Positions 1 to 29,269 of a DNA stretch of 64,000 nucleotides are shown here, one piece after another; positions within the stretch are counted from its first letter, which is position 1; each line of letters starts with the position of its first letter. The stretch is from NCBI GenBank assembly GCA_030386875.1, contig CM059567.1, positions 80,345,130-80,409,129 of the forward strand, in the 5' to 3' direction. This stretch comes from Morinoia aosen. Lineage: Eukaryota; Arthropoda; Malacostraca; Amphipoda; Talitridae. Below the pieces are notes generated by a model. The model had not been told where the DNA came from, made no database searches, and saw only the letters and a program-made list of their open reading frames with translations. The translations under genes were made by a program, and so were the position numbers.

Positions 1-103
1 TTCCTTGCTTGCCTGCATTCGCGTACCCGCAGGTTGGAACCAAGCTCCTATTTTGATATTTGCACAGTCCAAAGGTCACCATTCAATGGTCGCCTTTTCT
101 TCG

Positions 104-583
104 TCACGTTCTGGAAAATCTTAGGCATCTAGATGGAATGAACCCGATGATGTTCATCGGTTGATCGCCCTTTCCGGAAGCACATCTGTCTAGTGAGTGA
201 ATATCTTTGGCAATGATTGCGCAGGTTATCTCAGCTTGCGCCCTATGATGAGATCTTGGTGTTGGGCGCATCTTTTCCATGCGAGTGTACTCCGCTGAGT
301 ACATTCGGTGCTGATATTTTTCGATGAACGATTCACGTCGAGCCTCGGAAATTAGCTCTTCGACTGTTATGATGCGCATGCAAGAGTGACATCTGTTAGC
401 AGCTGCCTGCTGTTCAATGGTCTCAAGATTTTGGAAACTATAGCCCTCCGAAAGTGTTGTCATTTGCGGCTGTGAACGTTCTTTTTGTTCACGGGAGTAG
501 CGTGAGGCTGGGAGTTGAAGCTCAGTTGTAGGTAACAGTTTTCCGAGCAAATCGATCGTGATCCTGAATTTCGATGAATGCAT
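104..583 (-). other. Spacer open reading frame, 159 codons, probably not a gene
   Basis: A minus-strand frame starts with MHSSKF and ends with RFSRT just before a TGA. It is found at the same place in 51 of the 59 spacers in the window. I recognise no domain, signal peptide or membrane segment; it is polar and has an HSCHSCM cluster near residues 64-70. Differences between copies mostly change amino acids: R/T at residue 7, Q/H/L/Y near 24, Y/F, Y/C, S/F, D/N, P/S and F/L. Only a few are silent. That is what an unselected spacer would show. Eight copies are frameshifted. Conservation is better explained by homogenisation of the array. Confidence 0.15.
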
Positions 584-646
584 CGCACACTAATGGAATG
601 AATCATCGTGAGCTGGTGTGCAGGCTCCTGCTCAAAGTGAGCATTT

Positions 647-656
647 GTTCCAATCC
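647..656 (+). other. Box-B-like element in spacer
   Basis: GTTCCAATCC matches the type 2 Pol III box B core GTTCGANTCC except at one normally invariant G. A small inverted repeat (630-642) precedes it and a T10 run (702-711) follows. No convincing box A lies at the right distance, so I do not call an RNA gene. The element recurs in every spacer. Confidence 0.2.
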
Positions 657-701
657 TGAGCTGTTTGATGACGTTCCCTGCAATTGAAAGGTGTGACTTT
701 G

Positions 702-711
702 TTTTTTTTTT
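702..711 (+). repeat. Length-variable T-run in spacer
   Basis: A pure T-run follows ACTTTG and precedes CGCGC about 147 bases before each 5S gene. It is T10 here and ranges from T8 (for example in the spacer before the 5210 gene) to T11 (before the 60706 gene). It accounts for much of the length variation between units. Such a run would stop any Pol III transcript entering from the left. Confidence 0.8.
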
Positions 712-817
712 CGCGCAATTTAGGACGTGGACTACAATCGATAATACTGTTAGTTGAGCGTCGAGCATAGTGAAGCGGCGACATCATCGAGTATTGTTTT
801 ACTTGAAGATAAGTTGG

Positions 818-857
818 TCAAATACGAATTCGTTCGTTCGACATGGCAATCTTCCTC
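818..857 (+). promoter_or_regulatory. Conserved 5S upstream block (representative copy)
   Basis: The 40 bases before the gene are nearly invariant across the array. AAATA lies at about -38 to -34, in the range where some animal 5S genes carry a TATA-like element, and a GAATTC and a TTCG triplet repeat follow. The class G units (before 23709 and 33499) change three bases here, in cgatcgacatgacaatcttcgtc-type positions -24, -17 and -2 or close to them. A promoter role is inferred from position and conservation only. Confidence 0.4.
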
Positions 858-976
858 GCCAACGGCCATACCACGTTGAATGCACCGCTTCTCGTCCGAT
901 CAGCGAAGTTAAGCAACGTTGGGTCTGGTTAGTACTTGGATGGGTGACCGCCTGGGAACACCAGATGCTGTTGGCT
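858..976 (+). rRNA. 5S ribosomal RNA (unit 1, reference copy)
   Basis: 5S rRNA is a structural RNA of the large ribosomal subunit, made by RNA polymerase III. The gene runs from GCCAACGGCC to CTGTTGGCT. Bases 1-8 pair with 111-118 to form helix I (G1-C118 to G8-C111). Helix III pairs CGCT (29-32) with AGCG (45-48), then an AA bulge (49-50) and C28-G51, A27-U52. The internal promoter is visible: box A near 50-64 (GTTAAGCAACG), intermediate element near 67-72, and box C near 80-97 (GGATGGGTGACC). T5 follows at 976-980. The length of 119 nt is normal for an animal 5S. Start and end were set by helix I pairing. Class A: its flank has the rare tgttccgtgag, shared only with unit 33. Confidence 0.98.
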
Positions 977-980
977 TTTT
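976..980 (+). terminator. Pol III T5 terminator of 5S (representative)
   Basis: TTTTT directly follows GGC at the end of helix I, and a second run, TTTT, lies 8 bases further on (984-987). The arrangement ggctttttaccttttcc is repeated after nearly all copies. The exceptions are units 21, 22, 30 and 31. Confidence 0.85.
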
Positions 981-1945
981 ACCTTTTCCGTGTCTTCTTC
1001 GATGACAGGAATTTGGGTCAAATCTTCCGAGTGAATTCGATTTTTTCCGCGGGATTGTTCCGTGAGGTCATTTTTTTCAACACTTTGAATTCCTTGCTTG
1101 CCTGCATTCGCGTACCCGCAGGTTGGAACCAAGCTCCTATTTTGATATTTGCGCAGTCCAAAGGTCACCATTCAATGGTCGCCTTTTCGTCGTCACGTTC
1201 TGGAAAATCTTAGGCATTTAGATGGAATGAGCCCAATGATGTTCATCGATTGATCGCCCTTTCCGGAAGCACATCTGTCTAGTGAATGAATATTTTTGGC
1301 AATGATTGCGCAGGTTATCTCAGCTTGCGCCCTATGATGAGATCTTGGTGTTGGGCGCATCTTTTCCATGCGAGTGTACTCCGCTGAATACATTCGGTGC
1401 TGATATTTTTCGATGGACGATTCACGTCGAGCCTCGGAAATGAGCTCTTCGACTGTTATGATGCGCATGCAAGAGTGACAGCTGTGAGCAGCTGCCTGCT
1501 GTTCAATGGTCTCAAGATTTTGGAAACTACAGCCCTCCGAAAGTGTAGTCATTTGCGGCTGTGAACGTTCTTTTTGTTTACGGGAGTAGCGTGAGGCTGG
1601 GAGATGAAGCTCAGTTGTAGGTAACAGTTTTCCGAGCAAATCGATCGTGATCGTGAATTTCGATGAATGCATCGCACACTGATTGAATGAATCATCGTGA
1701 GCTGGTGTGCAGGCTCCTGCTCAAAGTGAGCATTTGTTCCAATCCTGAGCTGTTTGACGACGTTCCCTGCAATTGAAAGGTGTGACTTTGTTTTTTTTTC
1801 GCGCAATTTAGGACGTGGACTACAATCGATAATACTGTTAGTTGAGCGTCGAGCATAGTGAAGCGGCGACATCATCGAGTATTGTTTTACTTGAAGATAA
1901 GTTGGTCAAATACGAATTCGTTCGTTCGACATGGCAATCTTCCTC
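977..1945. repeat. 5S intergenic spacer (representative of the array)
   Basis: In order, the spacer holds a 3' flank with an inverted repeat ATTTG-ggt-CAAAT; a T6/T7 run; a region common to all units that includes the minus-strand 159-codon frame (1193-1672); small inverted repeats near GCTCA-aag-TGAGC; a box-B-like motif; a T8-T11 run; and the conserved block before the next gene. GAATTC occurs on both sides of each gene (826-831 and 1033-1038 for unit 1); the downstream site is lost in classes G and I. I see no second RNA or protein gene. Other spacers hold the same elements with class-specific substitutions. Confidence 0.85.
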
Positions 1946-2064
1946 GCCAACGGCCATACCACGTTGAATGCACCGCTTCTCGTCCGATCAGCGAAGTTAA
2001 GCAACGTTGGGTCTGGTTAGTACTTGGATGGGTGACCGCCTGGGAACACCAGATGCTGTTGGCT
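1946..2064 (+). rRNA. 5S ribosomal RNA (unit 2, class B)
   Basis: Same sequence as unit 1 by eye; begins 1088 bases after it. The flank has ctcccgag and T7. The unit matches 25886 and 36764. Confidence 0.97.
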
Positions 2065-3034
2065 TTTTACCTTTTCCGTGTCTTCTTCGATGACAGGAAT
2101 TTGGGTCAAATCTCCCGAGTGAATTCGATTTTTTCCGCGGGATTGTCCCGTGAGGTCATTTTTTTCAACACTTTAAATTCCTTGCTTGCCTGCATTCGCG
2201 TACCCGCAGGTTGGAACCAAGCTCCTATTTTGATATTTGCGCAGTCCAAAGGTCACCATTCAATGGTCGCCTTTTCGTCGTCACGTTCTGGAAAATCTTA
2301 GGCATTTAGATGGAATGAGCCCAATGATGTTCATCGATTGATCGCCCTTTTCGGAAGCACATCTGTCTAGTGAATGAATATTTTTGGCAATGATTGCGCA
2401 GGTTATCTCAGCTTGCGCCCTATGATGAGATCTTGGTGTTGGGCGCATCTTTTCCATGCGAGTGTACTCCGCTGAATACATTCGGTGCTGATATTTTTCG
2501 ATGGACGATTCACGTCGAGCCTCGGAAATGAGCTCTTCGACTGTTATGATGCGCATGCAAGAGTGACAGCTGTGAGCAGCTGCCTGCTGTTCAATGGTCT
2601 CAAGATTTTGGAAACTACAGCCCTCCGAAAGTGTAGTCATTTGCGGCTGTGAACGTTCTTTTTGTTTACGGGAGTAGCGTGAGGCTGGGAGATGAAGCTC
2701 AGTTGTAGGTAACAGTTTTCCGAGCAAATCGATCGTGATCGTGAATTTCGATGAATGCATCGCACACTGATTGAATGAATCATCGTGAGCTGGTGTGCAG
2801 GCTCCTGCTCAAAGTGAGCATTTGTTCCAATCCTGAGCTGTTTGACGACGTTCCCTGCAATTGAAAGGTGTGACTTTGTTTTTTTTTTCGCGCAATTTAG
2901 GAGGTGGACTACAATCGATAATACTGTTAGTTGAGCGTCGAGCATAGTGAAGCGGCGACATCATCGAGTATTGTTTTACTTGAAGATAAGTTGGTCAAAT
3001 ACGAATTCGTTCGTTCGACATGGCAATCTTCCTC

Positions 3035-3153
3035 GCCAACGGCCATACCACGTTGAATGCACCGCTTCTCGTCCGATCAGCGAAGTTAAGCAACGTTGGG
3101 TCTGGTTAGTACTTGGATGGGTGACCGCCTGGGAACACCAGATGCTGTTGGCT
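3035..3153 (+). rRNA. 5S ribosomal RNA (unit 3, class B)
   Basis: Consensus gene. The upstream spacer has aggaggtgg instead of aggacgtgg. Same arrangement as unit 35; the 5441-bp periodicity begins just after this gene, at about 3323. Confidence 0.97.
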
Positions 3154-4123
3154 TTTTACCTTTTCCGTGTCTTCTTCGATGACAGGAATTTGGGTCAAAT
3201 CTCCCGAGTGAATTCGATTTTTTCCGCGGGATTGTCCCGTGAGGTCATTTTTTTCAACACTTTAAATTCCTTGCTTGCCTGCATTCGCGTACCCGCAGGT
3301 TGGAACCAAGCTCCTATTTTGATATTTGCGCAGTCCAAAGGTCACCATTCAATGGTCGCCTTTTCGTCGTCACGTTCTGGAAAATCTTAGGCATTTAGAT
3401 GGAATGAGCCCAATGATGTTCATCGATTGATCGCCCTTTTCGGAAGCACATCTGTCTAGTGAATGAATATTTTTGGCAATGATTGCGCAGGTTATCTCAG
3501 CTTGCGCCCTATGATGAGATCTTGGTGTTGGGCGCATCTTTTCCATGCGAGTGTACTCCGCTGAATACATTCGGTGCTGATATTTTTCGATGGACGATTC
3601 ACGTCGAGCCTCGGAAATGAGCTCTTCGACTGTTATGATGCGCATGCAAGAGTGACAGCTGTGAGCAGCTGCCTGCTGTTCAATGGTCTCAAGATTTTGG
3701 AAACTACAGCCCTCCGAAAGTGTAGTCATTTGCGGCTGTGAACGTTCTTTTTGTTTACGGGAGTAGCGTGAGGCTGGGAGATGAAGCTCAGTTGTAGGTA
3801 ACAGTTTTCCGAGCAAATCGATCGTGATCGTGAATTTCGATGAATGCATCGCACACTGATTGAATGAATCATCGTGAGCTGGTGTGCAGGCTCCTGCTCA
3901 AAGTGAGCATTTGTTCCAATCCTGAGCTGTTTGACGACGTTCCCTGCAATTGAAAGGTGTGACTTTGTTTTTTTTTTCGCGCAATTTAGGAGGTGGACTA
4001 CAATCGATAATACTGTTAGTTGAGCGTCGAGCATAGTGAAGCGGCGACATCATCGAGTATTGTTTTACTTGAAGATAAGTTGGTCAAATACGAATTCGTT
4101 CGTTCGACATGGCAATCTTCCTC

Positions 4124-4242
4124 GCCAACGGCCATACCACGTTGAATGCACCGCTTCTCGTCCGATCAGCGAAGTTAAGCAACGTTGGGTCTGGTTAGTA
4201 CTTGGATGGGTGACCGCCTGGGAACACCAGATGCTGTTGGCT
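4124..4242 (+). rRNA. 5S ribosomal RNA (unit 4, class C)
   Basis: Consensus gene. The flank has cttccgag and T6 with ctttagattcc. First C member of the 5441-bp repeat. Confidence 0.97.
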
Positions 4243-5209
4243 TTTTACCTTTTCCGTGTCTTCTTCGATGACAGGAATTTGGGTCAAATCTTCCGAGTGA
4301 ATTCGATTTTTTCCGCGGGATTGTCCCGTGAGGTCATTTTTTCAACACTTTAGATTCCTTGCTTGCCTGCATTCGCGTACCCGCAGGTTGGAACCAAGCT
4401 CCTATTTTGATATTTGCACAGTCCAAAGGTCACCATTCAATGGTCGCCTTTTCTTCGTCACGTTCTGGAAAATCTTAGGCATCTAGATGGAATGAACCCG
4501 ATGATGTTCATCGGTTGATCGCCCTTTCCGGAAGCACATCTGTCTAGTGAGTGAATATCTTTGGCAATGATTGCGCAGGTTATCTCAGCTTGCGCCCTAT
4601 GATGAGATCTTGGTGTTGGGCGCATCTTTTCCATGCGAGTGTACTCCGCTGAGTACATTCGGTGCTGATATTTTTCGATGAACGATTCACGTCGAGCCTC
4701 GGAAATTAGCTCTTCGACTGTTATGATGCGCATGCAAGAGTGACATCTGTGAGCAGCTGCCTGCTGTTCAATGGTCTCAAGATTTTGGAAACTATAGCCC
4801 TCCGAAAGTGTTGTCATTTGCGGCTGTGAACGTTCTTTTTGTTCACGGGAGTAGCGTGAGGCTGGGAGTTGAAGCTCAGTTGTAGGTAACAGTTTTCCGA
4901 GCAAATCGATCGTGATCCTGAATTTCGATGAATGCATCGCACACTAATGGAATGAATCATCGTGAGCTGGTGTGCAGGCTCCTGCTCAAAGTGAGCATTT
5001 GTTCCAATCCTGAGCTGTTTGACGACGTTCCCTGCAATTGAAAGGTGTGACTTTGTTTTTTTTCGCGCAATTTAGGACGTGGACTACAATCGATAATACT
5101 GTTAGTTGAGCGTCGAGCATAGTGAAGCGGCGACATCATCGAGTATTGTTTTACTTGAAGATAAGTTGGTCAAATACGAATTCGTTCGTTCGACATGGCA
5201 ATCTTCCTC

Positions 5210-5328
5210 GCCAACGGCCATACCACGTTGAATGCACCGCTTCTCGTCCGATCAGCGAAGTTAAGCAACGTTGGGTCTGGTTAGTACTTGGATGGGTGAC
5301 CGCCTGGGAACACCAGATGCTGTTGGCT
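5210..5328 (+). rRNA. 5S ribosomal RNA (unit 5, class D)
   Basis: Consensus gene with a short T8 run upstream (unit spacing 1086). The spacer after it carries the frameshifted reading frame. Confidence 0.97.
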
Positions 5329-5544
5329 TTTTACCTTTTCCGTGTCTTCTTCGATGACAGGAATTTGGGTCAAATCTTCCGAGTGAATTCGATTTTTTCC
5401 GCGGGATTGTCCCGTGAGGTCATTTTTTTCAACACTTTAAATTCCTTGCTTGCCTGCATTCGCGTACCCGCAGGTTGGAACCAAGCTCCTATTTTGATAT
5501 TTGCGCAGTCCAAAGGTCACCATTCAATGGTCGCCTTTTCGTCG

Positions 5545-5904
5545 TCACGTTCTGGAAAATCTTAGGCATTTAGATGGAATGAGCCCAATGATGTTCATCG
5601 ATTGATCGCCCTTTCCGGAAGCACATCTGTCTAGTGAATGAATATTTTTGGCAATGATTGCGCAGGTTATCTCAGTTTGCGCCCTATGATGAGATCTTGG
5701 TGTTGGGCGCATCTTTTCCATGCGAGTGTACTCCGCTGAGTACATTCGTTGGTGATATTTTTCGATGGACGATTCACGTCGAGCCTCGGAAATTAGCTCT
5801 TCGACTGTTATGATGCGCATGCAAGAGTGACATCTGTGAGCAGCTGCCTGCTGTTCAATGGTCTCAAGATTTTGGAAACTACAGCCCTCCGAAAGTGTTG
5901 TCAT
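5545..5904 (-). other. Frameshifted version of the spacer reading frame
   Basis: The 5' end of the 159-codon frame is broken by loss of two bases (gttttattgttc in place of gttctttttgttc, near 5920), leaving 119 codons from an internal ATG. The same deletion is seen in the spacers before units 6, 11, 16, 32, 38, 43, 56 and 58. This argues against a required protein. Confidence 0.3.
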
Positions 5905-6299
5905 TTGCGGGTGTGAACGTTTTATTGTTCACGGGAGTAGCGTGAGGCTGAGAGATGAAGCTCGGTTGTAGGTAACAGTTTTCCGAGCAAATCGATCGTG
6001 ATCGTGAATTTCGATGAATGCATCGCACACTGATTGATTGAATGAACCATCGTGAGCTGGTGCGCAGGCTCCTGCTCAAAGTGAGCATTTGTTCCAATCC
6101 TGAGCTGTTTGACGACGTTCCCTGCAATTGGAAGGTGTGACTTTGTTTTTTTTCGCGCAATTTAGGACGTGGACTACAATCGATAATACTGTTAGTTGAG
6201 CGTCGAGCATAGTGAAGCGGCGACATCATCGAGTATTGTTTTACTTGAAGATAAGTTGGTCAAATACGAATTCGTTCGTTCGACATGGCAATCTTCCTC

Positions 6300-6418
6300 G
6301 CCAACGGCCATACCACGTTGAATGCACCGCTTCTCGTCCGATCAGCGAAGTTAAGCAACGTTGGGTCTGGTTAGTACTTGGATGGGTGACCGCCTGGGAA
6401 CACCAGATGCTGTTGGCT
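6300..6418 (+). rRNA. 5S ribosomal RNA (unit 6, class E)
   Basis: Consensus gene. The spacing of 1090 reflects an extra GATT in the upstream spacer (gattgattgaatg). The flank has ccgcgtc, ctcccgag and T6. Confidence 0.97.
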
Positions 6419-7387
6419 TTTTACCTTTTCCGCGTCTTCTTCGATGACAGGAATTTGGGTCAAATCTCCCGAGTGAATTCGATTTTTTCCGCGGGATTGT
6501 CCCGTGAGGTCATTTTTTCAACACTTTAGATTCCTTGCTTGCCTGCATTCGCGTACCCGCAGGTTGGAACCAAGCTCCTATTTTGATATTTGCACAGTCC
6601 AAAGGTCACCATTCAATGGTCGCCTTTTCTTCGTCACGTTCTGGAAAATCTTAGGCATCTAGATGGAATGAACCCGATGATGTTCATCGGTTGATCGCCC
6701 TTTCCGGAAGCACATCTGTCTAGTGAGTGAATATCTTTGGCAATGATTGCGCAGGTTATCTCAGCTTGCGCCCTATGATGAGATCTTGGTGTTGGGCGCA
6801 TCTTTTCCATGCGAGTGTACTCCGCTGAGTACATTCGGTGCTGATATTTTTCGATGAACGATTCACGTCGAGCCTCGGAAATTAGCTCTTCGACTGTTAT
6901 GATGCGCATGCAAGAGTGACATCTGTTAGCAGCTGCCTGCTGTTCAATGGTCTCAAGATTTTGGAAACTATAGCCCTCCGAAAGTGTTGTCATTTGCGGC
7001 TGTGAACGTTCTTTTTGTTCACGGGAGTAGCGTGAGGCTGGGAGTTGAAGCTCAGTTGTAGGTAACAGTTTTCCGAGCAAATCGATCGTGATCCTGAATT
7101 TCGATGAATGCATCGCACACTAATGGAATGAATCATCGTGAGCTGGTGTGCAGGCTCCTGCTCAAAGTGAGCATTTGTTCCAATCCTGAGCTGTTTGATG
7201 ACGTTCCCTGCAATTGAAAGGTGTGACTTTGTTTTTTTTTTCGCGCAATTTAGGACGTGGACTACAATCGATAATACTGTTAGTTGAGCGTCGAGCATAG
7301 TGAAGCGGCGACATCATCGAGTATTGTTTTACTTGAAGATAAGTTGGTCAAATACGAATTCGTTCGTTCGACATGGCAATCTTCCTC

Positions 7388-7506
7388 GCCAACGGCCATA
7401 CCACGTTGAATGCGCCGCTTCTCGTCCGATCAGCGAAGTTAAGCAACGTTGGGTCTGGTTAGTACTTGGATGGGTGACCGCCTGGGAACACCAGATGCTG
7501 TTGGCT
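7388..7506 (+). rRNA. 5S ribosomal RNA (unit 7, class A*, A27G)
   Basis: Base 27 is G instead of A. In the helix III extension this turns A27-U52 into a G-U wobble, so folding should hold. The same change marks units 12, 17, 39 and 44. Confidence 0.96.
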
Positions 7507-8475
7507 TTTTACCTTTTCCGTGTCTTCTTCGATGACAGGAATTTGGGTCAAATCTTCCGAGTGAATTCGATTTTTTCCGCGGGATTGTCCCGTGAGGTCA
7601 TTTTTTTCAACACTTTAAATTCCTTGCTTGCCTGCATTCGCGTACCCGCAGGTTGGAACCAAGCTCCTATTTTGATATTTGCGCAGTCCAAAGGTCACCA
7701 TTCAATGGTCGCCTTTTCGTCGTCACGTTCTGGAAAATCTTAGGCATTTAGATGGAATGAGCCCAATGATGTTCATCGATTGATCGCCCTTTCCGGAAGC
7801 ACATCTGTCTAGTGAATGAATATTTTTGGCAATGATTGCGCAGGTTATCTCAGCTTGCGCCCTATGATGAGATCTTGGTGTTGGGCGCATCTTTTCCATG
7901 CGAGTGTACTCCGCTGAATACATTCGGTGCTGATATTTTTCGATGGACGATTCACGTCGAGCCTCGGAAATGAGCTCTTCGACTGTTATGATGCGCATGC
8001 AAGAGTGACAGCTGTGAGCAGCTGCCTGCTGTTCAATGGTCTCAAGATTTTGGAAACTACAGCCCTCCGAAAGTGTAGTCATTTGCGGCTGTGAACGTTC
8101 TTTTTGTTTACGGGAATAGCGTGAGGCTGGGAGAAGAAGCTCAGTTGTAGGTAACAGTTTTCCGAGCAAATCGATCGTGATCGTGAATTTCGATGAATGC
8201 ATCGCACACTGATTGAATGAATCATCGTGAGCTGGTGTGCAGGCTCCTGCTCAAAGTGAGCATTTGTTCCAATCCTGAGCTGTTTGACGACGTTCCCTGC
8301 AATTGAGAGGTGTGACTTTGTTTTTTTTTCGCGCAATTTAGGACGTGGACTACAATCGATAATACTGTTAGTTGAGCGTCGAGCATAGTGAAGCGGCGAC
8401 ATCATCGAGTATTGTTTTACTTGAAGATAAGTTGGTCAAATACGAATTCGTTCGTTCGACATGGCAATCTTCCTC

Positions 8476-8594
8476 GCCAACGGCCATACCACGTTGAATG
8501 CACCGCTTCTCGTCCGATCAGCGAAGTTAAGCAACGTTGGGTCTGGTTAGTACTTGGATGGGTGACCGCCTGGGAACACCAGATGCTGTTGGCT
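8476..8594 (+). rRNA. 5S ribosomal RNA (unit 8, class B*)
   Basis: Consensus gene. Marked by ttggtattt in the flank and by gggaatagcg and gagaagaag in the spacer before it. Confidence 0.97.
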
Positions 8595-9564
8595 TTTTAC
8601 CTTTTCCGTGTCTTCTTCGATGACAGGAATTTGGGTCAAATCTCCCGAGTGAATTCGATTTTTTCCGCGGGATTGTCCCGTGAGGTCATTTTTTTCAACA
8701 CTTTAAATTCCTTGCTTGCCTGCATTCGCGTACCCGCAGGTTGGAACCAAGCTCCTATTTTGGTATTTGCGCAGTCCAAAGGTCACCATTCAATGGTCGC
8801 CTTTTCGTCGTCACGTTCTGGAAAATCTTAGGCATTTAGATGGAATGAGCCCAATGATGTTCATCGATTGATCGCCCTTTTCGGAAGCACATCTGTCTAG
8901 TGAATGAATATTTTTGGCAATGATTGCGCAGGTTATCTCAGCTTGCGCCCTATGATGAGATCTTGGTGTTGGGCGCATCTTTTCCATGCGAGTGTACTCC
9001 GCTGAATACATTCGGTGCTGATATTTTTCGATGGACGATTCACGTCGAGCCTCGGAAATGAGCTCTTCGACTGTTATGATGCGCATGCAAGAGTGACAGC
9101 TGTGAGCAGCTGCCTGCTGTTCAATGGTCTCAAGATTTTGGAAACTACAGCCCTCCGAAAGTGTAGTCATTTGCGGCTGTGAACGTTCTTTTTGTTTACG
9201 GGAGTAGCGTGAGGCTGGGAGATGAAGCTCAGTTGTAGGTAACAGTTTTCCGAGCAAATCGATCGTGATCGTGAATTTCGATGAATGCATCGCACACTGA
9301 TTGAATGAATCATCGTGAGCTGGTGTGCAGGCTCCTGCTCAAAGTGAGCATTTGTTCCAATCCTGAGCTGTTTGACGACGTTCCCTGCAATTGAAAGGTG
9401 TGACTTTGTTTTTTTTTTCGCGCAATTTAGGAGGTGGACTACAATCGATAATACTGTTAGTTGAGCGTCGAGCATAGTGAAGCGGCGACATCATCGAGTA
9501 TTGTTTTACTTGAAGATAAGTTGGTCAAATACGAATTCGTTCGTTCGACATGGCAATCTTCCTC

Positions 9565-9683
9565 GCCAACGGCCATACCACGTTGAATGCACCGCTTCTC
9601 GTCCGATCAGCGAAGTTAAGCAACGTTGGGTCTGGTTAGTACTTGGATGGGTGACCGCCTGGGAACACCAGATGCTGTTGGCT
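9565..9683 (+). rRNA. 5S ribosomal RNA (unit 9, class C)
   Basis: Consensus gene, exactly 5441 bases after unit 4. Confidence 0.97.
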
Positions 9684-10650
9684 TTTTACCTTTTCCGTGT
9701 CTTCTTCGATGACAGGAATTTGGGTCAAATCTTCCGAGTGAATTCGATTTTTTCCGCGGGATTGTCCCGTGAGGTCATTTTTTCAACACTTTAGATTCCT
9801 TGCTTGCCTGCATTCGCGTACCCGCAGGTTGGAACCAAGCTCCTATTTTGATATTTGCACAGTCCAAAGGTCACCATTCAATGGTCGCCTTTTCTTCGTC
9901 ACGTTCTGGAAAATCTTAGGCATCTAGATGGAATGAACCCGATGATGTTCATCGGTTGATCGCCCTTTCCGGAAGCACATCTGTCTAGTGAGTGAATATC
10001 TTTGGCAATGATTGCGCAGGTTATCTCAGCTTGCGCCCTATGATGAGATCTTGGTGTTGGGCGCATCTTTTCCATGCGAGTGTACTCCGCTGAGTACATT
10101 CGGTGCTGATATTTTTCGATGAACGATTCACGTCGAGCCTCGGAAATTAGCTCTTCGACTGTTATGATGCGCATGCAAGAGTGACATCTGTGAGCAGCTG
10201 CCTGCTGTTCAATGGTCTCAAGATTTTGGAAACTATAGCCCTCCGAAAGTGTTGTCATTTGCGGCTGTGAACGTTCTTTTTGTTCACGGGAGTAGCGTGA
10301 GGCTGGGAGTTGAAGCTCAGTTGTAGGTAACAGTTTTCCGAGCAAATCGATCGTGATCCTGAATTTCGATGAATGCATCGCACACTAATGGAATGAATCA
10401 TCGTGAGCTGGTGTGCAGGCTCCTGCTCAAAGTGAGCATTTGTTCCAATCCTGAGCTGTTTGACGACGTTCCCTGCAATTGAAAGGTGTGACTTTGTTTT
10501 TTTTCGCGCAATTTAGGACGTGGACTACAATCGATAATACTGTTAGTTGAGCGTCGAGCATAGTGAAGCGGCGACATCATCGAGTATTGTTTTACTTGAA
10601 GATAAGTTGGTCAAATACGAATTCGTTCGTTCGACATGGCAATCTTCCTC

Positions 10651-10769
10651 GCCAACGGCCATACCACGTTGAATGCACCGCTTCTCGTCCGATCAGCGAA
10701 GTTAAGCAACGTTGGGTCTGGTTAGTACTTGGATGGGTGACCGCCTGGGAACACCAGATGCTGTTGGCT
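10651..10769 (+). rRNA. 5S ribosomal RNA (unit 10, class D)
   Basis: Consensus gene, 5441 bases after unit 5. Confidence 0.97.
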
Positions 10770-11740
10770 TTTTACCTTTTCCGTGTCTTCTTCGATGACA
10801 GGAATTTGGGTCAAATCTTCCGAGTGAATTCGATTTTTTCCGCGGGATTGTCCCGTGAGGTCATTTTTTTCAACACTTTAAATTCCTTGCTTGCCTGCAT
10901 TCGCGTACCCGCAGGTTGGAACCAAGCTCCTATTTTGATATTTGCGCAGTCCAAAGGTCACCATTCAATGGTCGCCTTTTCGTCGTCACGTTCTGGAAAA
11001 TCTTAGGCATTTAGATGGAATGAGCCCAATGATGTTCATCGATTGATCGCCCTTTCCGGAAGCACATCTGTCTAGTGAATGAATATTTTTGGCAATGATT
11101 GCGCAGGTTATCTCAGTTTGCGCCCTATGATGAGATCTTGGTGTTGGGCGCATCTTTTCCATGCGAGTGTACTCCGCTGAGTACATTCGTTGGTGATATT
11201 TTTCGATGGACGATTCACGTCGAGCCTCGGAAATTAGCTCTTCGACTGTTATGATGCGCATGCAAGAGTGACATCTGTGAGCAGCTGCCTGCTGTTCAAT
11301 GGTCTCAAGATTTTGGAAACTACAGCCCTCCGAAAGTGTTGTCATATGCGGGTGTGAACGTTTTATTGTTCACGGGAGTAGCGTGAGGCTGAGAGATGAA
11401 GCTCGGTTGTAGGTAACAGTTTTCCGAGCAAATCGATCGTGATCGTGAATTTCGATGAATGCATCGCACACTGATTGATTGAATGAACCATCGTGAGCTG
11501 GTGCGCAGGCTCCTGCTCAAAGTGAGCATTTGTTCCAATCCTGAGCTGTTTGACGACGTTCCCTGCAATTGGAAGGTGTGACTTTGTTTTTTTTCGCGCA
11601 ATTTAGGACGTGGACTACAATCGATAATACTGTTAGTTGAGCGTCGAGCATAGTGAAGCGGCGACATCATCGAGTATTGTTTTACTTGAAGATAAGTTGG
11701 TCAAATACGAATTCGTTCGTTCGACATGGCAATCTTCCTC

Positions 11741-11859
11741 GCCAACGGCCATACCACGTTGAATGCACCGCTTCTCGTCCGATCAGCGAAGTTAAGCAAC
11801 GTTGGGTCTGGTTAGTACTTGGATGGGTGACCGCCTGGGAACACCAGATGCTGTTGGCT
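11741..11859 (+). rRNA. 5S ribosomal RNA (unit 11, class E)
   Basis: Consensus gene, 5441 bases after unit 6. The spacer before it has catatgcgg where unit 6 has catttgcgg, a marker shared with units 16 and 43. Confidence 0.97.
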
Positions 11860-12828
11860 TTTTACCTTTTCCGCGTCTTCTTCGATGACAGGAATTTGGG
11901 TCAAATCTCCCGAGTGAATTCGATTTTTTCCGCGGGATTGTCCCGTGAGGTCATTTTTTCAACACTTTAGATTCCTTGCTTGCCTGCATTCGCGTACCCG
12001 CAGGTTGGAACCAAGCTCCTATTTTGATATTTGCACAGTCCAAAGGTCACCATTCAATGGTCGCCTTTTCTTCGTCACGTTCTGGAAAATCTTAGGCATC
12101 TAGATGGAATGAACCCGATGATGTTCATCGGTTGATCGCCCTTTCCGGAAGCACATCTGTCTAGTGAGTGAATATCTTTGGCAATGATTGCGCAGGTTAT
12201 CTCAGCTTGCGCCCTATGATGAGATCTTGGTGTTGGGCGCATCTTTTCCATGCGAGTGTACTCCGCTGAGTACATTCGGTGCTGATATTTTTCGATGAAC
12301 GATTCACGTCGAGCCTCGGAAATTAGCTCTTCGACTGTTATGATGCGCATGCAAGAGTGACATCTGTTAGCAGCTGCCTGCTGTTCAATGGTCTCAAGAT
12401 TTTGGAAACTATAGCCCTCCGAAAGTGTTGTCATTTGCGGCTGTGAACGTTCTTTTTGTTCACGGGAGTAGCGTGAGGCTGGGAGTTGAAGCTCAGTTGT
12501 AGGTAACAGTTTTCCGAGCAAATCGATCGTGATCCTGAATTTCGATGAATGCATCGCACACTAATGGAATGAATCATCGTGAGCTGGTGTGCAGGCTCCT
12601 GCTCAAAGTGAGCATTTGTTCCAATCCTGAGCTGTTTGATGACGTTCCCTGCAATTGAAAGGTGTGACTTTGTTTTTTTTTTCGCGCAATTTAGGACGTG
12701 GACTACAATCGATAATACTGTTAGTTGAGCGTCGAGCATAGTGAAGCGGCGACATCATCGAGTATTGTTTTACTTGAAGATAAGTTGGTCAAATACGAAT
12801 TCGTTCGTTCGACATGGCAATCTTCCTC

Positions 12829-12947
12829 GCCAACGGCCATACCACGTTGAATGCGCCGCTTCTCGTCCGATCAGCGAAGTTAAGCAACGTTGGGTCTGGT
12901 TAGTACTTGGATGGGTGACCGCCTGGGAACACCAGATGCTGTTGGCT
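12829..12947 (+). rRNA. 5S ribosomal RNA (unit 12, class A*, A27G)
   Basis: Carries A27G like unit 7, 5441 bases upstream. Confidence 0.96.
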
Positions 12948-13916
12948 TTTTACCTTTTCCGTGTCTTCTTCGATGACAGGAATTTGGGTCAAATCTTCCG
13001 AGTGAATTCGATTTTTTCCGCGGGATTGTCCCGTGAGGTCATTTTTTTCAACACTTTAAATTCCTTGCTTGCCTGCATTCGCGTACCCGCAGGTTGGAAC
13101 CAAGCTCCTATTTTGATATTTGCGCAGTCCAAAGGTCACCATTCAATGGTCGCCTTTTCGTCGTCACGTTCTGGAAAATCTTAGGCATTTAGATGGAATG
13201 AGCCCAATGATGTTCATCGATTGATCGCCCTTTCCGGAAGCACATCTGTCTAGTGAATGAATATTTTTGGCAATGATTGCGCAGGTTATCTCAGCTTGCG
13301 CCCTATGATGAGATCTTGGTGTTGGGCGCATCTTTTCCATGCGAGTGTACTCCGCTGAATACATTCGGTGCTGATATTTTTCGATGGACGATTCACGTCG
13401 AGCCTCGGAAATGAGCTCTTCGACTGTTATGATGCGCATGCAAGAGTGACAGCTGTGAGCAGCTGCCTGCTGTTCAATGGTCTCAAGATTTTGGAAACTA
13501 CAGCCCTCCGAAAGTGTAGTCATTTGCGGCTGTGAACGTTCTTTTTGTTTACGGGAATAGCGTGAGGCTGGGAGAAGAAGCTCAGTTGTAGGTAACAGTT
13601 TTCCGAGCAAATCGATCGTGATCGTGAATTTCGATGAATGCATCGCACACTGATTGAATGAATCATCGTGAGCTGGTGTGCAGGCTCCTGCTCAAAGTGA
13701 GCATTTGTTCCAATCCTGAGCTGTTTGACGACGTTCCCTGCAATTGAGAGGTGTGACTTTGTTTTTTTTTCGCGCAATTTAGGACGTGGACTACAATCGA
13801 TAATACTGTTAGTTGAGCGTCGAGCATAGTGAAGCGGCGACATCATCGAGTATTGTTTTACTTGAAGATAAGTTGGTCAAATACGAATTCGTTCGTTCGA
13901 CATGGCAATCTTCCTC

Positions 13917-14035
13917 GCCAACGGCCATACCACGTTGAATGCACCGCTTCTCGTCCGATCAGCGAAGTTAAGCAACGTTGGGTCTGGTTAGTACTTGGAT
14001 GGGTGACCGCCTGGGAACACCAGATGCTGTTGGCT
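13917..14035 (+). rRNA. 5S ribosomal RNA (unit 13, class B*)
   Basis: Consensus gene, 5441 bases after unit 8, with the same ttggtattt marker. Confidence 0.97.
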
Positions 14036-15005
14036 TTTTACCTTTTCCGTGTCTTCTTCGATGACAGGAATTTGGGTCAAATCTCCCGAGTGAATTCGAT
14101 TTTTTCCGCGGGATTGTCCCGTGAGGTCATTTTTTTCAACACTTTAAATTCCTTGCTTGCCTGCATTCGCGTACCCGCAGGTTGGAACCAAGCTCCTATT
14201 TTGGTATTTGCGCAGTCCAAAGGTCACCATTCAATGGTCGCCTTTTCGTCGTCACGTTCTGGAAAATCTTAGGCATTTAGATGGAATGAGCCCAATGATG
14301 TTCATCGATTGATCGCCCTTTTCGGAAGCACATCTGTCTAGTGAATGAATATTTTTGGCAATGATTGCGCAGGTTATCTCAGCTTGCGCCCTATGATGAG
14401 ATCTTGGTGTTGGGCGCATCTTTTCCATGCGAGTGTACTCCGCTGAATACATTCGGTGCTGATATTTTTCGATGGACGATTCACGTCGAGCCTCGGAAAT
14501 GAGCTCTTCGACTGTTATGATGCGCATGCAAGAGTGACAGCTGTGAGCAGCTGCCTGCTGTTCAATGGTCTCAAGATTTTGGAAACTACAGCCCTCCGAA
14601 AGTGTAGTCATTTGCGGCTGTGAACGTTCTTTTTGTTTACGGGAGTAGCGTGAGGCTGGGAGATGAAGCTCAGTTGTAGGTAACAGTTTTCCGAGCAAAT
14701 CGATCGTGATCGTGAATTTCGATGAATGCATCGCACACTGATTGAATGAATCATCGTGAGCTGGTGTGCAGGCTCCTGCTCAAAGTGAGCATTTGTTCCA
14801 ATCCTGAGCTGTTTGACGACGTTCCCTGCAATTGAAAGGTGTGACTTTGTTTTTTTTTTCGCGCAATTTAGGAGGTGGACTACAATCGATAATACTGTTA
14901 GTTGAGCGTCGAGCATAGTGAAGCGGCGACATCATCGAGTATTGTTTTACTTGAAGATAAGTTGGTCAAATACGAATTCGTTCGTTCGACATGGCAATCT
15001 TCCTC

Positions 15006-15124
15006 GCCAACGGCCATACCACGTTGAATGCACCGCTTCTCGTCCGATCAGCGAAGTTAAGCAACGTTGGGTCTGGTTAGTACTTGGATGGGTGACCGCC
15101 TGGGAACACCAGATGCTGTTGGCT
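15006..15124 (+). rRNA. 5S ribosomal RNA (unit 14, class C)
   Basis: Consensus gene, third C member of the 5441-bp repeat. Confidence 0.97.
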
Positions 15125-16091
15125 TTTTACCTTTTCCGTGTCTTCTTCGATGACAGGAATTTGGGTCAAATCTTCCGAGTGAATTCGATTTTTTCCGCGG
15201 GATTGTCCCGTGAGGTCATTTTTTCAACACTTTAGATTCCTTGCTTGCCTGCATTCGCGTACCCGCAGGTTGGAACCAAGCTCCTATTTTGATATTTGCA
15301 CAGTCCAAAGGTCACCATTCAATGGTCGCCTTTTCTTCGTCACGTTCTGGAAAATCTTAGGCATCTAGATGGAATGAACCCGATGATGTTCATCGGTTGA
15401 TCGCCCTTTCCGGAAGCACATCTGTCTAGTGAGTGAATATCTTTGGCAATGATTGCGCAGGTTATCTCAGCTTGCGCCCTATGATGAGATCTTGGTGTTG
15501 GGCGCATCTTTTCCATGCGAGTGTACTCCGCTGAGTACATTCGGTGCTGATATTTTTCGATGAACGATTCACGTCGAGCCTCGGAAATTAGCTCTTCGAC
15601 TGTTATGATGCGCATGCAAGAGTGACATCTGTGAGCAGCTGCCTGCTGTTCAATGGTCTCAAGATTTTGGAAACTATAGCCCTCCGAAAGTGTTGTCATT
15701 TGCGGCTGTGAACGTTCTTTTTGTTCACGGGAGTAGCGTGAGGCTGGGAGTTGAAGCTCAGTTGTAGGTAACAGTTTTCCGAGCAAATCGATCGTGATCC
15801 TGAATTTCGATGAATGCATCGCACACTAATGGAATGAATCATCGTGAGCTGGTGTGCAGGCTCCTGCTCAAAGTGAGCATTTGTTCCAATCCTGAGCTGT
15901 TTGACGACGTTCCCTGCAATTGAAAGGTGTGACTTTGTTTTTTTTCGCGCAATTTAGGACGTGGACTACAATCGATAATACTGTTAGTTGAGCGTCGAGC
16001 ATAGTGAAGCGGCGACATCATCGAGTATTGTTTTACTTGAAGATAAGTTGGTCAAATACGAATTCGTTCGTTCGACATGGCAATCTTCCTC

Positions 16092-16210
16092 GCCAACGGC
16101 CATACCACGTTGAATGCACCGCTTCTCGTCCGATCAGCGAAGTTAAGCAACGTTGGGTCTGGTTAGTACTTGGATGGGTGACCGCCTGGGAACACCAGAT
16201 GCTGTTGGCT
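16092..16210 (+). rRNA. 5S ribosomal RNA (unit 15, class D)
   Basis: Consensus gene, third D member of the 5441-bp repeat. Confidence 0.97.
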
Positions 16211-17181
16211 TTTTACCTTTTCCGTGTCTTCTTCGATGACAGGAATTTGGGTCAAATCTTCCGAGTGAATTCGATTTTTTCCGCGGGATTGTCCCGTGAG
16301 GTCATTTTTTTCAACACTTTAAATTCCTTGCTTGCCTGCATTCGCGTACCCGCAGGTTGGAACCAAGCTCCTATTTTGATATTTGCGCAGTCCAAAGGTC
16401 ACCATTCAATGGTCGCCTTTTCGTCGTCACGTTCTGGAAAATCTTAGGCATTTAGATGGAATGAGCCCAATGATGTTCATCGATTGATCGCCCTTTCCGG
16501 AAGCACATCTGTCTAGTGAATGAATATTTTTGGCAATGATTGCGCAGGTTATCTCAGTTTGCGCCCTATGATGAGATCTTGGTGTTGGGCGCATCTTTTC
16601 CATGCGAGTGTACTCCGCTGAGTACATTCGTTGGTGATATTTTTCGATGGACGATTCACGTCGAGCCTCGGAAATTAGCTCTTCGACTGTTATGATGCGC
16701 ATGCAAGAGTGACATCTGTGAGCAGCTGCCTGCTGTTCAATGGTCTCAAGATTTTGGAAACTACAGCCCTCCGAAAGTGTTGTCATATGCGGGTGTGAAC
16801 GTTTTATTGTTCACGGGAGTAGCGTGAGGCTGAGAGATGAAGCTCGGTTGTAGGTAACAGTTTTCCGAGCAAATCGATCGTGATCGTGAATTTCGATGAA
16901 TGCATCGCACACTGATTGATTGAATGAACCATCGTGAGCTGGTGCGCAGGCTCCTGCTCAAAGTGAGCATTTGTTCCAATCCTGAGCTGTTTGACGACGT
17001 TCCCTGCAATTGGAAGGTGTGACTTTGTTTTTTTTCGCGCAATTTAGGACGTGGACTACAATCGATAATACTGTTAGTTGAGCGTCGAGCATAGTGAAGC
17101 GGCGACATCATCGAGTATTGTTTTACTTGAAGATAAGTTGGTCAAATACGAATTCGTTCGTTCGACATGGCAATCTTCCTC

Positions 17182-17300
17182 GCCAACGGCCATACCACGT
17201 TGAATGCACCGCTTCTCGTCCGATCAGCGAAGTTAAGCAACGTTGGGTCTGGTTAGTACTTGGATGGGTGACCGCCTGGGAACACCAGATGCTGTTGGCT
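17182..17300 (+). rRNA. 5S ribosomal RNA (unit 16, class E)
   Basis: Consensus gene. The flank at 17331-17342 reads ggatttgggg where all other units have ggaatttggg, a private difference that could be a consensus error. Confidence 0.97.
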
Positions 17301-18272
17301 TTTTACCTTTTCCGCGTCTTCTTCGATGACAGGATTTGGGGTCAAATCTCCCGAGTGAATTCGATTTTTTCCGCGGGATTGTCCCGTGAGGTCATTTTTT
17401 CAACACTTTAGATTCCTTGCTTGCCTGCATTCGCGTACCCGCAGGTTGGAACCAAGCTCCTATTTTGATATTTGCACAGTCCAAAGGTCACCATTCAATG
17501 GTCGCCTTTTCTTCGTCACGTTCTGGAAAATCTTAGGCATCTAGATGGAATGAACCCGATGATGTTCATCGGTTGATCGCCCTTTCCGGAAGCACATCTG
17601 TCTAGTGAGTGAATATCTTTGGCAATGATTGCGCAGGTTATCTCAGCTTGCGCCCTATGATGAGATCTTGGTGTTGGGCGCATCTTTTCCATGCGAGTGT
17701 ACTCCGCTGAGTACATTCGGTGCTGATATTTTTCGATGAACGATTCACGTCGAGCCTCGGAAATTAGCTCTTCGACTGTTATGATGCGCATGCAAGAGTG
17801 ACATCTGTTAGCAGCTGCCTGCTGTTCAATGGTCTCAAGATTTTGGAAACTATAGCCCTCCGAAAGTGTTGTCATTTGCGGCTGTGAACGTTCTTTTTGT
17901 TCACGGGAGTAGCGTGAGGCTGGGAGTTGAAGCTCAGTTGTAGGTAACAGTTTTCCGAGCAAATCGATCGTGATCCTGAATTTCGATGAATGCATCGCAC
18001 ACTAATGGAATGAATCATCGTGAGCTGGTGTGCAGGCTCCTGCTCAAAGTGAGCATTTGTTCCAATCCTGAGCTGTTTGATGACGTTCCCTGCAATTGAA
18101 AGGTGTGACTTTGTTTTTTTTTTTCGCGCAATTTAGGACGTGGACTACAATCGATAATACTGTTAGTTGAGCGTCGAGCATAGTGAAGCGGCGACGATCA
18201 TCGAGTATTGTTTTTACTTGAAGATAAGTTGGTCAAATACGAATTCGTTCGTTCGACATGGCAATCTTCCTC

Positions 18273-18391
18273 GCCAACGGCCATACCACGTTGAATGCGC
18301 CGCTTCTCGTCCGATCAGCGAAGTTAAGCAACGTTGGGTCTGGTTAGTACTTGGATGGGTGACCGCCTGGGAACACCAGATGCTGTTGGCT
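18273..18391 (+). rRNA. 5S ribosomal RNA (unit 17, class A*, A27G)
   Basis: Carries A27G. The spacing of 1091 is the longest in the window. Single extra bases occur upstream in the T-run (18114-18124), at gacgatcatc (about 18195) and in ttttt (18211-18215). Confidence 0.96.
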
Positions 18392-19360
18392 TTTTACCTT
18401 TTCCGTGTCTTCTTCGATGACAGGAATTTGGGTCAAATCTTCCGAGTGAATTCGATTTTTTCCGCGGGATTGTCCCGTGAGGTCATTTTTTTCAACACTT
18501 TAAATTCCTTGCTTGCCTGCATTCGCGTACCCGCAGGTTGGAACCAAGCTCCTATTTTGATATTTGCGCAGTCCAAAGGTCACCATTCAATGGTCGCCTT
18601 TTCGTCGTCACGTTCTGGAAAATCTTAGGCATTTAGATGGAATGAGCCCAATGATGTTCATCGATTGATCGCCCTTTCCGGAAGCACATCTGTCTAGTGA
18701 ATGAATATTTTTGGCAATGATTGCGCAGGTTATCTCAGCTTGCGCCCTATGATGAGATCTTGGTGTTGGGCGCATCTTTTCCATGCGAGTGTACTCCGCT
18801 GAATACATTCGGTGCTGATATTTTTCGATGGACGATTCACGTCGAGCCTCGGAAATGAGCTCTTCGACTGTTATGATGCGCATGCAAGAGTGACAGCTGT
18901 GAGCAGCTGCCTGCTGTTCAATGGTCTCAAGATTTTGGAAACTACAGCCCTCCGAAAGTGTAGTCATTTGCGGCTGTGAACGTTCTTTTTGTTTACGGGA
19001 ATAGCGTGAGGCTGGGAGAAGAAGCTCAGTTGTAGGTAACAGTTTTCCGAGCAAATCGATCGTGATCGTGAATTTCGATGAATGCATCGCACACTGATTG
19101 AATGAATCATCGTGAGCTGGTGTGCAGGCTCCTGCTCAAAGTGAGCATTTGTTCCAATCCTGAGCTGTTTGACGACGTTCCCTGCAATTGAAAGGTGTGA
19201 CTTTGTTTTTTTTTCGCGCAATTTAGGACGTGGACTACAATCGATAATACTGTTAGTTGAGCGTCGAGCATAGTGAAGCGGCGACATCATCGAGTATTGT
19301 TTTACTTGAAGATAAGTTGGTCAAATACGAATTCGTTCGTTCGACATGGCAATCTTCCTC

Positions 19361-19479
19361 GCCAACGGCCATACCACGTTGAATGCACCGCTTCTCGTCC
19401 GATCAGCGAAGTTAAGCAACGTTGGGTCTGGTTAGTACTTGGATGGGTGACCGCCTGGGAACACCAGATGCTGTTGGCT
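19361..19479 (+). rRNA. 5S ribosomal RNA (unit 18, class B*)
   Basis: Consensus gene with ttggtattt. The spacer before it has gaaagg where units 8, 13, 40 and 45 have gagagg. Confidence 0.97.
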
Positions 19480-20449
19480 TTTTACCTTTTCCGTGTCTTC
19501 TTCGATGACAGGAATTTGGGTCAAATCTCCCGAGTGAATTCGATTTTTTCCGCGGGATTGTCCCGTGAGGTCATTTTTTTCAACACTTTAAATTCCTTGC
19601 TTGCCTGCATTCGCGTACCCGCAGGTTGGAACCAAGCTCCTATTTTGGTATTTGCGCAGTCCAAAGGTCACCATTCAATGGTCGCCTTTTCGTCGTCACG
19701 TTCTGGAAAATCTTAGGCATTTAGATGGAATGAGCCCAATGATGTTCATCGATTGATCGCCCTTTTCGGAAGCACATCTGTCTAGTGAATGAATATTTTT
19801 GGCAATGATTGCGCAGGTTATCTCAGCTTGCGCCCTATGATGAGATCTTGGTGTTGGGCGCATCTTTTCCATGCGAGTGTACTCCGCTGAATACATTCGG
19901 TGCTGATATTTTTCGATGGACGATTCACGTCGAGCCTCGGAAATGAGCTCTTCGACTGTTATGATGCGCATGCAAGAGTGACAGCTGTGAGCAGCTGCCT
20001 GCTGTTCAATGGTCTCAAGATTTTGGAAACTACAGCCCTCCGAAAGTGTAGTCATTTGCGGCTGTGAACGTTCTTTTTGTTTACGGGAGTAGCGTGAGGC
20101 TGGGAGATGAAGCTCAGTTGTAGGTAACAGTTTTCCGAGCAAATCGATCGTGATCGTGAATTTCGATGAATGCATCGCACACTGATTGAATGAATCATCG
20201 TGAGCTGGTGTGCAGGCTCCTGCTCAAAGTGAGCATTTGTTCCAATCCTGAGCTGTTTGACGACGTTCCCTGCAATTGAAAGGTGTGACTTTGTTTTTTT
20301 TTTCGCGCAATTTAGGAGGTGGACTACAATCGATAATACTGTTAGTTGAGCGTCGAGCATAGTGAAGCGGCGACATCATCGAGTATTGTTTTACTTGAAG
20401 ATAAGTTGGTCAAATACGAATTCGTTCGTTCGACATGGCAATCTTCCTC

Positions 20450-20568
20450 GCCAACGGCCATACCACGTTGAATGCACCGCTTCTCGTCCGATCAGCGAAG
20501 TTAAGCAACGTTGGGTCTGGTTAGTACTTGGATGGGTGACCGCCTGGGAACACCAGATGCTGTTGGCT
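20450..20568 (+). rRNA. 5S ribosomal RNA (unit 19, class X)
   Basis: Consensus gene. The upstream side is C-like (aggaggtgg) and the downstream side E-like (ccgcgtc), so the unit is a mosaic. Unit 46 has the same structure. Confidence 0.97.
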
Positions 20569-21535
20569 TTTTACCTTTTCCGCGTCTTCTTCGATGACAG
20601 GAATTTGGGTCAAATCTCCCGAGTGAATTCGATTTTTTCCGCGGGATTGTCCCGTGAGGTCATTTTTTCAACACTTTAGATTCCTTGCTTGCCTGCATTC
20701 GCGTACCCGCAGGTTGGAACCAAGCTCCTATTTTGATATTTGCACAGTCCAAAGGTCACCATTCAATGGTCGCCTTTTCTTCGTCACGTTCTGGAAAATC
20801 TTAGGCATCTAGATGGAATGAACCCGATGATGTTCATCGGTTGATCGCCCTTTCCGGAAGCACATCTGTCTAGTGAGTGAATATCTTTGGCAATGATTGC
20901 GCAGGTTATCTCAGCTTGCGCCCTATGATGAGATCTTGGTGTTGGGCGCATCTTTTCCATGCGAGTGTACTCCGCTGAATACATTCGGTGCTGATATTTT
21001 TCGATGGACGATTCACGTCGAGCCTCGGAAATGAGCTCTTCGACTGTTATGATGCGCATGCAAGAGTGACATCTGTGAGCAGCTGCCTGCTGTTCAATGG
21101 TCTCAAGATTTTGGAAACTATAGCCCTCCGAAAGTGTTGTCATTTGCGGCTGTGAACGTTCTTTTTGTTCACGGGAGTAGCGTGAGGCTGGGAGTTGAAG
21201 CTCAGTTGTAGGTAACAGTTTTCCGAGCAAATCGATCGTGATCCTGAATTTCGATGAATGCATCGCACACTAATGGAATGAATCATCGTGAGCTGGTGTG
21301 CAGGCTCCTGCTCAAAGTGAGCATTTGTTCCAATCCTGAGCTGTTTGACGACGTTCCCTGCAATTGGAAGGTGTGACTTTGTTTTTTTTCGCGCAATTTA
21401 GGACGTGGACTACAATCGATAATACTGTTAGTTGAGCGTCGAGCATAGTGAAGCGGCGACATCATCGAGTATTGTTTTACTTGAAGATAAGTTGGTCAAA
21501 TACGAATTCGTTCGTTCGACATGGCAATCTTCCTC

Positions 21536-26974: not shown

Positions 26975-27093
26975 GCCAACGGCCATACCACGTTGAATGC
27001 ACCGCTTCTCGTCCGATCAGCGAAGTTAAGCAACGTTGGGTCTGGTTAGTACTTAGATGGGTGACCGCCTGGGAACACCAGATGCTGTTGGCT
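26975..27093 (+). rRNA. 5S ribosomal RNA (unit 25, class H, G81A)
   Basis: Base 81 is A (TACTTAGATGG), at the start of internal box C. As I recall it, the Drosophila 5S gene also has A here, so the change is probably tolerated. Confidence 0.94.
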
Positions 27094-28062: not shown

Positions 28063-28181
28063 GCCAACGGCCATACCACGTTGAATGCACCGCTTCTCGT
28101 CGGATCAGCGAAGTTAAGCAACGTTGGGTCTGGTTAGTACTTGGATGGGTGACCGCCTGGGAACACCAGATGCTGTTGGCT
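28063..28181 (+). rRNA. 5S ribosomal RNA (unit 26, class I, C40G)
   Basis: Base 40 is G, inside the conserved loop C (CGTCGGATC instead of CGTCCGATC). The -1 region is also altered (caatattcctc) and the 3' flank is diverged (gaatttgatttatatcgcg). Confidence 0.92.
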
Positions 28182-29150: not shown

Positions 29151-29269
29151 GCCAACGGCCATACCACGTTGAATGCACCGCTTCTCGTCCGATCAGCGAA
29201 GTTAAGCAACGTTGGGTCTGGTTAGTACTTAGATGGGTGACCGCCTGGGAACACCAGATGCTGTTGGCT
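29151..29269 (+). rRNA. 5S ribosomal RNA (unit 27, class H, G81A)
   Basis: Duplicate of unit 25, 2176 bases downstream, with the same G81A. Confidence 0.94.

Follow-up and report, generated by a model that had tools for sequence, protein, structure and literature searches.

The window analysed here, 64,000 nt of the Morinoia aosen genome (contig CM059567.1, positions 80,345,130–80,409,129), is a single head-to-tail array of 5S ribosomal DNA (rDNA), in which units 4 to 18 (u4–u18, 4124–20449) are three tandem copies of one five-unit block. This five-unit repeat is a small, young higher-order repeat (HOR), a known kind of change in rDNA. Multi-unit unequal exchange within a well-conserved 5S array probably made the tandem block duplications described below, the five-unit HOR among them.

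Rfam identifies 58 complete 5S genes, agreeing with the 58 units of an earlier note on this DNA; all lie on the + strand, as do the repeat copies given below, and score 111.9–117.3 bits against a cut-off of 38. No family except 5S reaches its gathering score in the window. Units are 1086–1091 bp long and are numbered from the first 5S start (u1 at 858), negative numbers lying upstream of the window; there are 59 unit starts, the last unit being cut by the window end. The genes are separated by spacer and are more conserved than it (diversity 0.0036 versus 0.0203 over 58 units), with an identical gene sequence in 45 of the 58 units, as is characteristic of tandem 5S rDNA. Adding 200 kb of upstream and 30 kb of downstream DNA brought the total read to 147 units, comprising 91 haplotypes, and placed the left end of the array at window coordinate -66585. 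On the other side, 5S matches near the window, among those listed by a search of the 1.99-Gb assembly (29 contigs), extend at least to 80,678,786 of the same contig, a lower bound given that 47 of 52,933 candidates were scored.

HOR copies 1 (u4–u8, 4124–9564) and 2 (u9–u13, 9565–15005) are each 5441 bp long, and copy 3 (u14–u18, 15006–20449) is 5444 bp; by unit type they read C D E A B, C D' E A B and C D' E' A' B. Compared in the frame of the earlier note (3323–8763, 8764–14204 and 14205–19648), copies 1 and 2 are separated by 1 column, copies 2 and 3 by 6, and copies 1 and 3 by 7. Block copies are thus closer to one another (1–7 columns per 5441–5444 bp) than are the monomers inside copy 1, which differ by 6–37 of 1097 columns (0.5–3.4%). 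This bears out the earlier claim of a five-unit order recurring with the same spacing and the same private substitutions. The extent then proposed, 3323..20582 with a period of 5441 bp, also holds: identity at lag 5441 begins at 3323, with 418 further matching bases to the left of a lone mismatch at 3322, and in its right-hand copy the identity reaches 20582, the lag having moved by 3 bp, to 5444, because of u16. The latter unit, E', holds five of the six columns separating copy 3 from copy 2. To the left of the HOR lies a B-type unit, u3 (3035–4123), with 1 difference from u8. Using the TRASH defaults (PMC10199239) as an operational definition of a HOR (at least three consecutive monomers, at most five variants), u3–u10 against u8–u15 form such a run, with differences of 1, 0, 1, 0, 0, 0, 0 and 0. 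Poly-T lengths across u4–u18 follow the block order (8, 8, 10, 9, 10), the exception being a length of 11 in u16. Five changes are private to u16 (17182–18272): a pair lying 3 bp apart, and three single-base insertions close to the 3' end.

Units of u4–u18 differ on average by 0.7 columns when five apart and by 1.4 when ten apart, while the remaining lags up to 12 give 20.7–28.0. Over the whole window the lag-5 mean is 16.5, versus 22.7 over all pairs, and 11 of 53 lag-5 pairs are identical; none of 2000 shuffles of the order of the 58 units matched this mean at lag 5. Lag 10 is weaker (mean 20.1, reached in 56 of 2000 shuffles) and lag 15 shows no dip (24.7), as expected from three copies only. 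Of the identity peaks that had been placed at multiples of five units, those at lags 5 and 10 are present in u4–u18, and that at lag 15 is missing window-wide. The lag-5 dip is absent from u19–u32 (30.1) and u46–u58 (21.1), and the upstream lag-5 mean is 25.5. Smooth decay of identity with distance, the pattern that would have spoken against a period of five, is absent: Spearman coefficients of lag against difference are 0.07 (u1–u32), 0.21 (u46–u58, p 0.07) and -0.05 (all 58 units).

Once all lags are allowed, the mean-by-lag test loses force, 142 of 2000 shuffles attaining 16.5 at one or another lag between 1 and 45 and 103 of 500 attaining the u1–u32 value at some lag, because long lags average few pairs. 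We dropped this statistic as a decisive test and took run length instead. Collinear runs (at most 2 differences per unit) extend over 13 units at lag 32, the longest in the window, and over 8 at lag 5; no run in 500 shuffles exceeded 4. Among the 147 units the longest spans 29, whereas 300 shuffles yielded none above 4. For u4–u18 alone, the observed mean was attained by none of 500 best-of-lags shuffles. Three other candidate periodicities were rejected on the best-of-lags basis: lag 2 in u46–u58 (6 of 20000 shuffles at that lag, yet 29 of 500 best-of-lags), lag 9 in u19–u32 (333 of 20000; 41 of 500) and lag 2 in u19–u32 (1426 of 20000; 391 of 500). Tandem Repeats Finder reported nothing, because its maximum period of 500 is below the unit length.

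The earlier note had also taken 38–50 kb as support. The period is present there, as two block copies in u36–u45 (38942–49823), which repeat u4–u13 verbatim (0 differences per unit at lag 32). This second instance is part of a larger duplication and provides no independent support for a five-unit rule. Positions 1–15138 exactly equal 34819–49956 (15,138 bp), at an offset of 34,818 bp or 32 units. Upstream DNA lengthens this exact repeat to 31,745 bp, of the 34,818 bp expected for a tandem duplication, and the leftward extension matched an expectation drawn from the window repeat before the upstream DNA was examined. The left copy runs from -16606 to 15138 (1–15138 within the window) and the right copy from 18212 to 49956, such that u19–u32 are copies of u-13 to u0. 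At the left end, u-16 matches the E haplotype (u6, u11), u-15 matches A' (u17), u-14 matches B and u-13 matches u19, which fits the requirement of a tandem join; the lag-27 differences of u-16 to u-14 are 0, 1 and 0.

The length of this repeat raises the matter of assembly. An artefact in which a repeat was walked twice, or two haplotypes were joined, would explain the 32-unit duplication and perhaps the HOR, and we regard it as unlikely. A stretch of 31,745 bp exceeds usual accurate long reads. With no difference anywhere along it, how many large copies there are, and in what order, may depend on how the assembly graph was resolved, and long-read assemblies of a single accession are reported to differ widely in 5S copy number (~3,962 versus ~1,111; PMC9757041). 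On the other side, the two large copies diverge beyond each end of the exact repeat, the 200 kb upstream contains no N and unit spacing is regular in the 30 kb downstream. The three HOR copies are safer than the large ones because they carry differences and span ~16 kb; they also end in different flanks, and their poly-T tracts keep the block order except in u16. An artefact could hold for the large block alone, the rival explanations not all being exclusive of unequal exchange.

Duplications of several further sizes are present. Units u2 and u3 are an identical one-unit pair. A two-unit tandem duplication occupies 26323–30893 (26323–28717 equals 28499–30893, lag 2176) and a second two-unit repeat, u55–u56/u57–u58, occupies 59617–63968, with 1 difference each. 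Ten units, u47–u56 (50911–61792), are the left copy of a lag-20 block repeated beyond the window as u67–u76 with 0–2 differences per unit (2, 0, 0, 0, 1, 0, 0, 0, 1, 1), and u63–u66 recur at lag 19 as u82–u85 (1, 0, 2, 2). Upstream there is a four-unit run at lag 9 (u-33 to u-30; 1, 5, 3, 4) and another five-unit pair, u-46 to u-42 against u-41 to u-37 (2, 2, 2, 6, 3), which is older than the u4–u18 block. Offsets across the 147 units are thus 1, 2, 5 (twice), 9, 19–20 and 27/32 units, the largest being 32, and 103 of 147 units belong to collinear duplicates three or more units long in which no unit has more than 3 differences. Five is a recurring size, but one among several, and is not the array's unit of change. 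The proposal that recent amplification acted on blocks of five genes consequently stands for the u4–u18 block, which was amplified and has low divergence, but not as a general rule for the array.

The sequence itself shows the blocks with their offsets, the private substitutions they share and the exact repeat of 31.7 kb; exchange, and an order of events, would be what lies behind them. Duplication is tandem, by whole units and joined in register, as expected of a product of unequal exchange, except that a stretch of 3,073 bp of the 34,818 bp falls outside the match. Such exchange would take place between sister chromatids or homologues whose near-identical units misalign by several positions. 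In a first step, exchange between B units five apart (u3 and u8) could have duplicated C D E A B. A second, in which the partners were identical E units (the u11 type and u-16) lying 27 positions from each other, would then have duplicated a 27-unit block, and a further five-unit exchange, again between E units, may have added the third copy, giving an offset of 27 + 5 = 32 with u16 as the proposed junction unit. On this reading, the period of five would reflect how far apart pre-existing near-identical units lay, and not a five-gene machine. Closeness like that of u3 and u8 (at most 1 difference) is found in 7 of 231 pairs among the 22 units (u1–u8, u19–u32) taken as the pre-event array, a rough figure given that u19–u32 turned out to be copies of u-13 to u0.

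Several points weigh against this account. The 3,073 bp outside the match are the leftmost part of the expected duplication, and u14–u16 differ from u-18 to u-16 by 24, 15 and 5, which rules out duplication of 32 units in one plain step. Because that step fails, the 27 + 5 history was adopted as the simplest that we could find, and it was framed after the mismatch had been seen. Nor is it unique: a 32-unit exchange between homologues differing in HOR copy number also fits. Identical units are also produced by the events themselves, making them weak proof of seeding. The lag-20 duplication does not extend past u56; u57 and u58 alone continue it, at lag 18 (0, 0). Finally, the simulations of exchange described below include neither gene conversion nor homology dependence.

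Excision of a five-unit extrachromosomal circle followed by reintegration, or rolling-circle copying, is improbable to much the same degree as an assembly artefact. It would yield in-register tandem copies, and circles of exact tandem-repeat multiples are reported in a study whose title names 5S rDNA (PMC3225859). One ring copied at once should give equal copies, however, whereas copy 3 stands 6–7 columns from copies that differ from each other by 1 (a contrast that later mutation could blur), and a separate ring would be needed for every unrelated offset.

Unequal exchange over many units is further favoured by the relation between neighbours. Single-unit exchange renders neighbours similar, but those in the window are slightly more different than average (24.5 versus 22.7; a value at least this high arose in 957 of 20000 shuffles). 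The ratio of the lag-1 difference to the overall mean is 1.08 for the 58 units, 1.06 for u1–u32, 1.05 for u14–u58 and 1.03 over 147 units (24.62/24.02). Simulated ratios (30 runs per model, array size and offset ranges chosen by us) are 0.15–0.27 for single-unit steps, 0.30–0.77 for offsets of 1–3 units, 0.64–1.27 for 1–10, 0.87–1.24 for 1–40 and 1.12–1.22 for a fixed five. Broad multi-unit offsets fit these data better than single-unit steps do; the preference over a fixed five is weaker. Short-tract gene conversion homogenizing every fifth unit is very improbable: units are indeed mosaics, with 11 inferred switches among 28 representative units, but short tracts fail to explain complete-unit identity in fixed order over 5.4–31.7 kb. 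Within units, conversion probably operates as a secondary process; a short internal tract occurs in u55.

A bolder extension, which we offer tentatively and consider rather unlikely, is that individual exchanges can be read directly from the array, with homology setting the offset of each (near-identical units of the B and E types serving as partners), so that the spacing of rare twins would set the next period, and that breaks may favour spacer columns 430–545 beside a short hairpin. Eight of the 11 inferred switches fall within these columns (4551–4666 in u4; P 0.007 versus simulated recombinants), or 6 of 9 after merging shared intervals (P 0.05), the interval width having been picked after looking. 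An inverted repeat with 11-nt arms lies at 4636–4661, inside the same interval. A breakpoint hot spot here is a weak lead.

Block duplications have also multiplied a 5S gene variant. A G at gene position 27 occurs in u7, u12, u17, u39 and u44 (7388, 12829, 18273, 42206 and 47647) and entails a small loss of score (115.2 versus 117.3 bits). The lowest-scoring genes, at 111.9 bits, are those of u22 (23709) and u31 (33499); in both, G48T disrupts a base pair that is consensus in the Rfam alignment, and to judge from the sequence they are possibly weaker genes. A second 5S cluster lies on the same contig at 20.29–21.03 Mb, where the 5S units in the eight short loci read (3119 bp each) are spaced at 395–397 bp. 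The 5S gene of one of these loci is nearly identical to that of the window, placing two 5S array types on one contig. The window contains no tRNA, and in one two-unit stretch only 5S was matched among RNA families at E values up to 1. Fifteen open reading frames of 102–159 aa in 5300–10800 recur with the unit and in some cases cross the 5S gene, and are unsupported as genes. A prokaryotic, plasmid, phage or viral origin of the window was considered and rejected: an exact 54-base pattern from the 5S gene had no hit in the collections of genome and viral contigs, and blastn with one unit matched nothing among plasmids or phages, although these collections may omit the organism's own or closely related records. 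The 5S sequence has an animal-like appearance.

Among the closest known likenesses is the 5S cluster of C. elegans N2, with ~1-kb units, many variants and a reproducible order (PMC8961926). Strains there differ by a multi-unit fragment comprising one copy each of units 1.1, 1.7 and 1.24, for which unequal sister recombination and circle reintegration are discussed; the sections of that report consulted here describe no tandem five-unit block. The C. elegans cluster also carries SL1, whereas the Morinoia two-unit stretch gave no match to the SL1 family at E values up to 1, and the spliced-leader strings searched for are absent from the window. In the Drosophila histone cluster, which differs in genes and unit size, a two-unit tandem duplication is described and variation is read as unequal sister chromatid exchange (PMC12400953). 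Long reads of pike (Esox) 5S show variant-rich arrays, some with inverted blocks; 'higher-order' denotes classes of block arrangement on single reads, and the available text shows no multi-unit period with private substitutions (PMC5437419). By title and opening of the abstract, this is the only paper to treat 5S higher-order structure among the literature found joining 5S rDNA and HORs. The complete 5S array of maize Mo17 holds 346 unit genotypes and is, like that of Morinoia, variant-rich; it is ordered from a younger, uniform end to an older, diverse one, and higher-order analysis in the text seen is of satellites and not 5S (PMC10335936). A five-unit tandem 5S block was not found in the literature searched, figures and supplements excluded.

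Monomers of centromeric alpha-satellite HORs diverge by tens of percent. Those of the Morinoia block, 1.09-kb 5S units, are only 0.5–3.4% apart (6–37 of 1097 columns), and in place of many homogenized copies there are three, plus two in the duplicate, among the 147 units read. The resemblance to centromeric satellites drawn in the earlier note accordingly extends to the block principle alone: the satellite definition, ordered distinct monomers repeated as a block with copies closer than monomers (PMC10199239), is shared.

Homogenization of rDNA is often framed as local conversion that makes neighbours alike; in long reads of human 45S rDNA, for example, adjacent copies are more alike than random ones (PMC8559705). 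In Morinoia, neighbours are no more alike than average, and the order of marked units points to block exchange of 2 to ~32 units. With block duplications of several sizes, including a five-unit block present three times, the data suggest an array that has changed many genes at a time. Holding 91 haplotypes in 147 units, it would be a natural place to measure pairing distance during exchange, if pedigree or population long reads exist.

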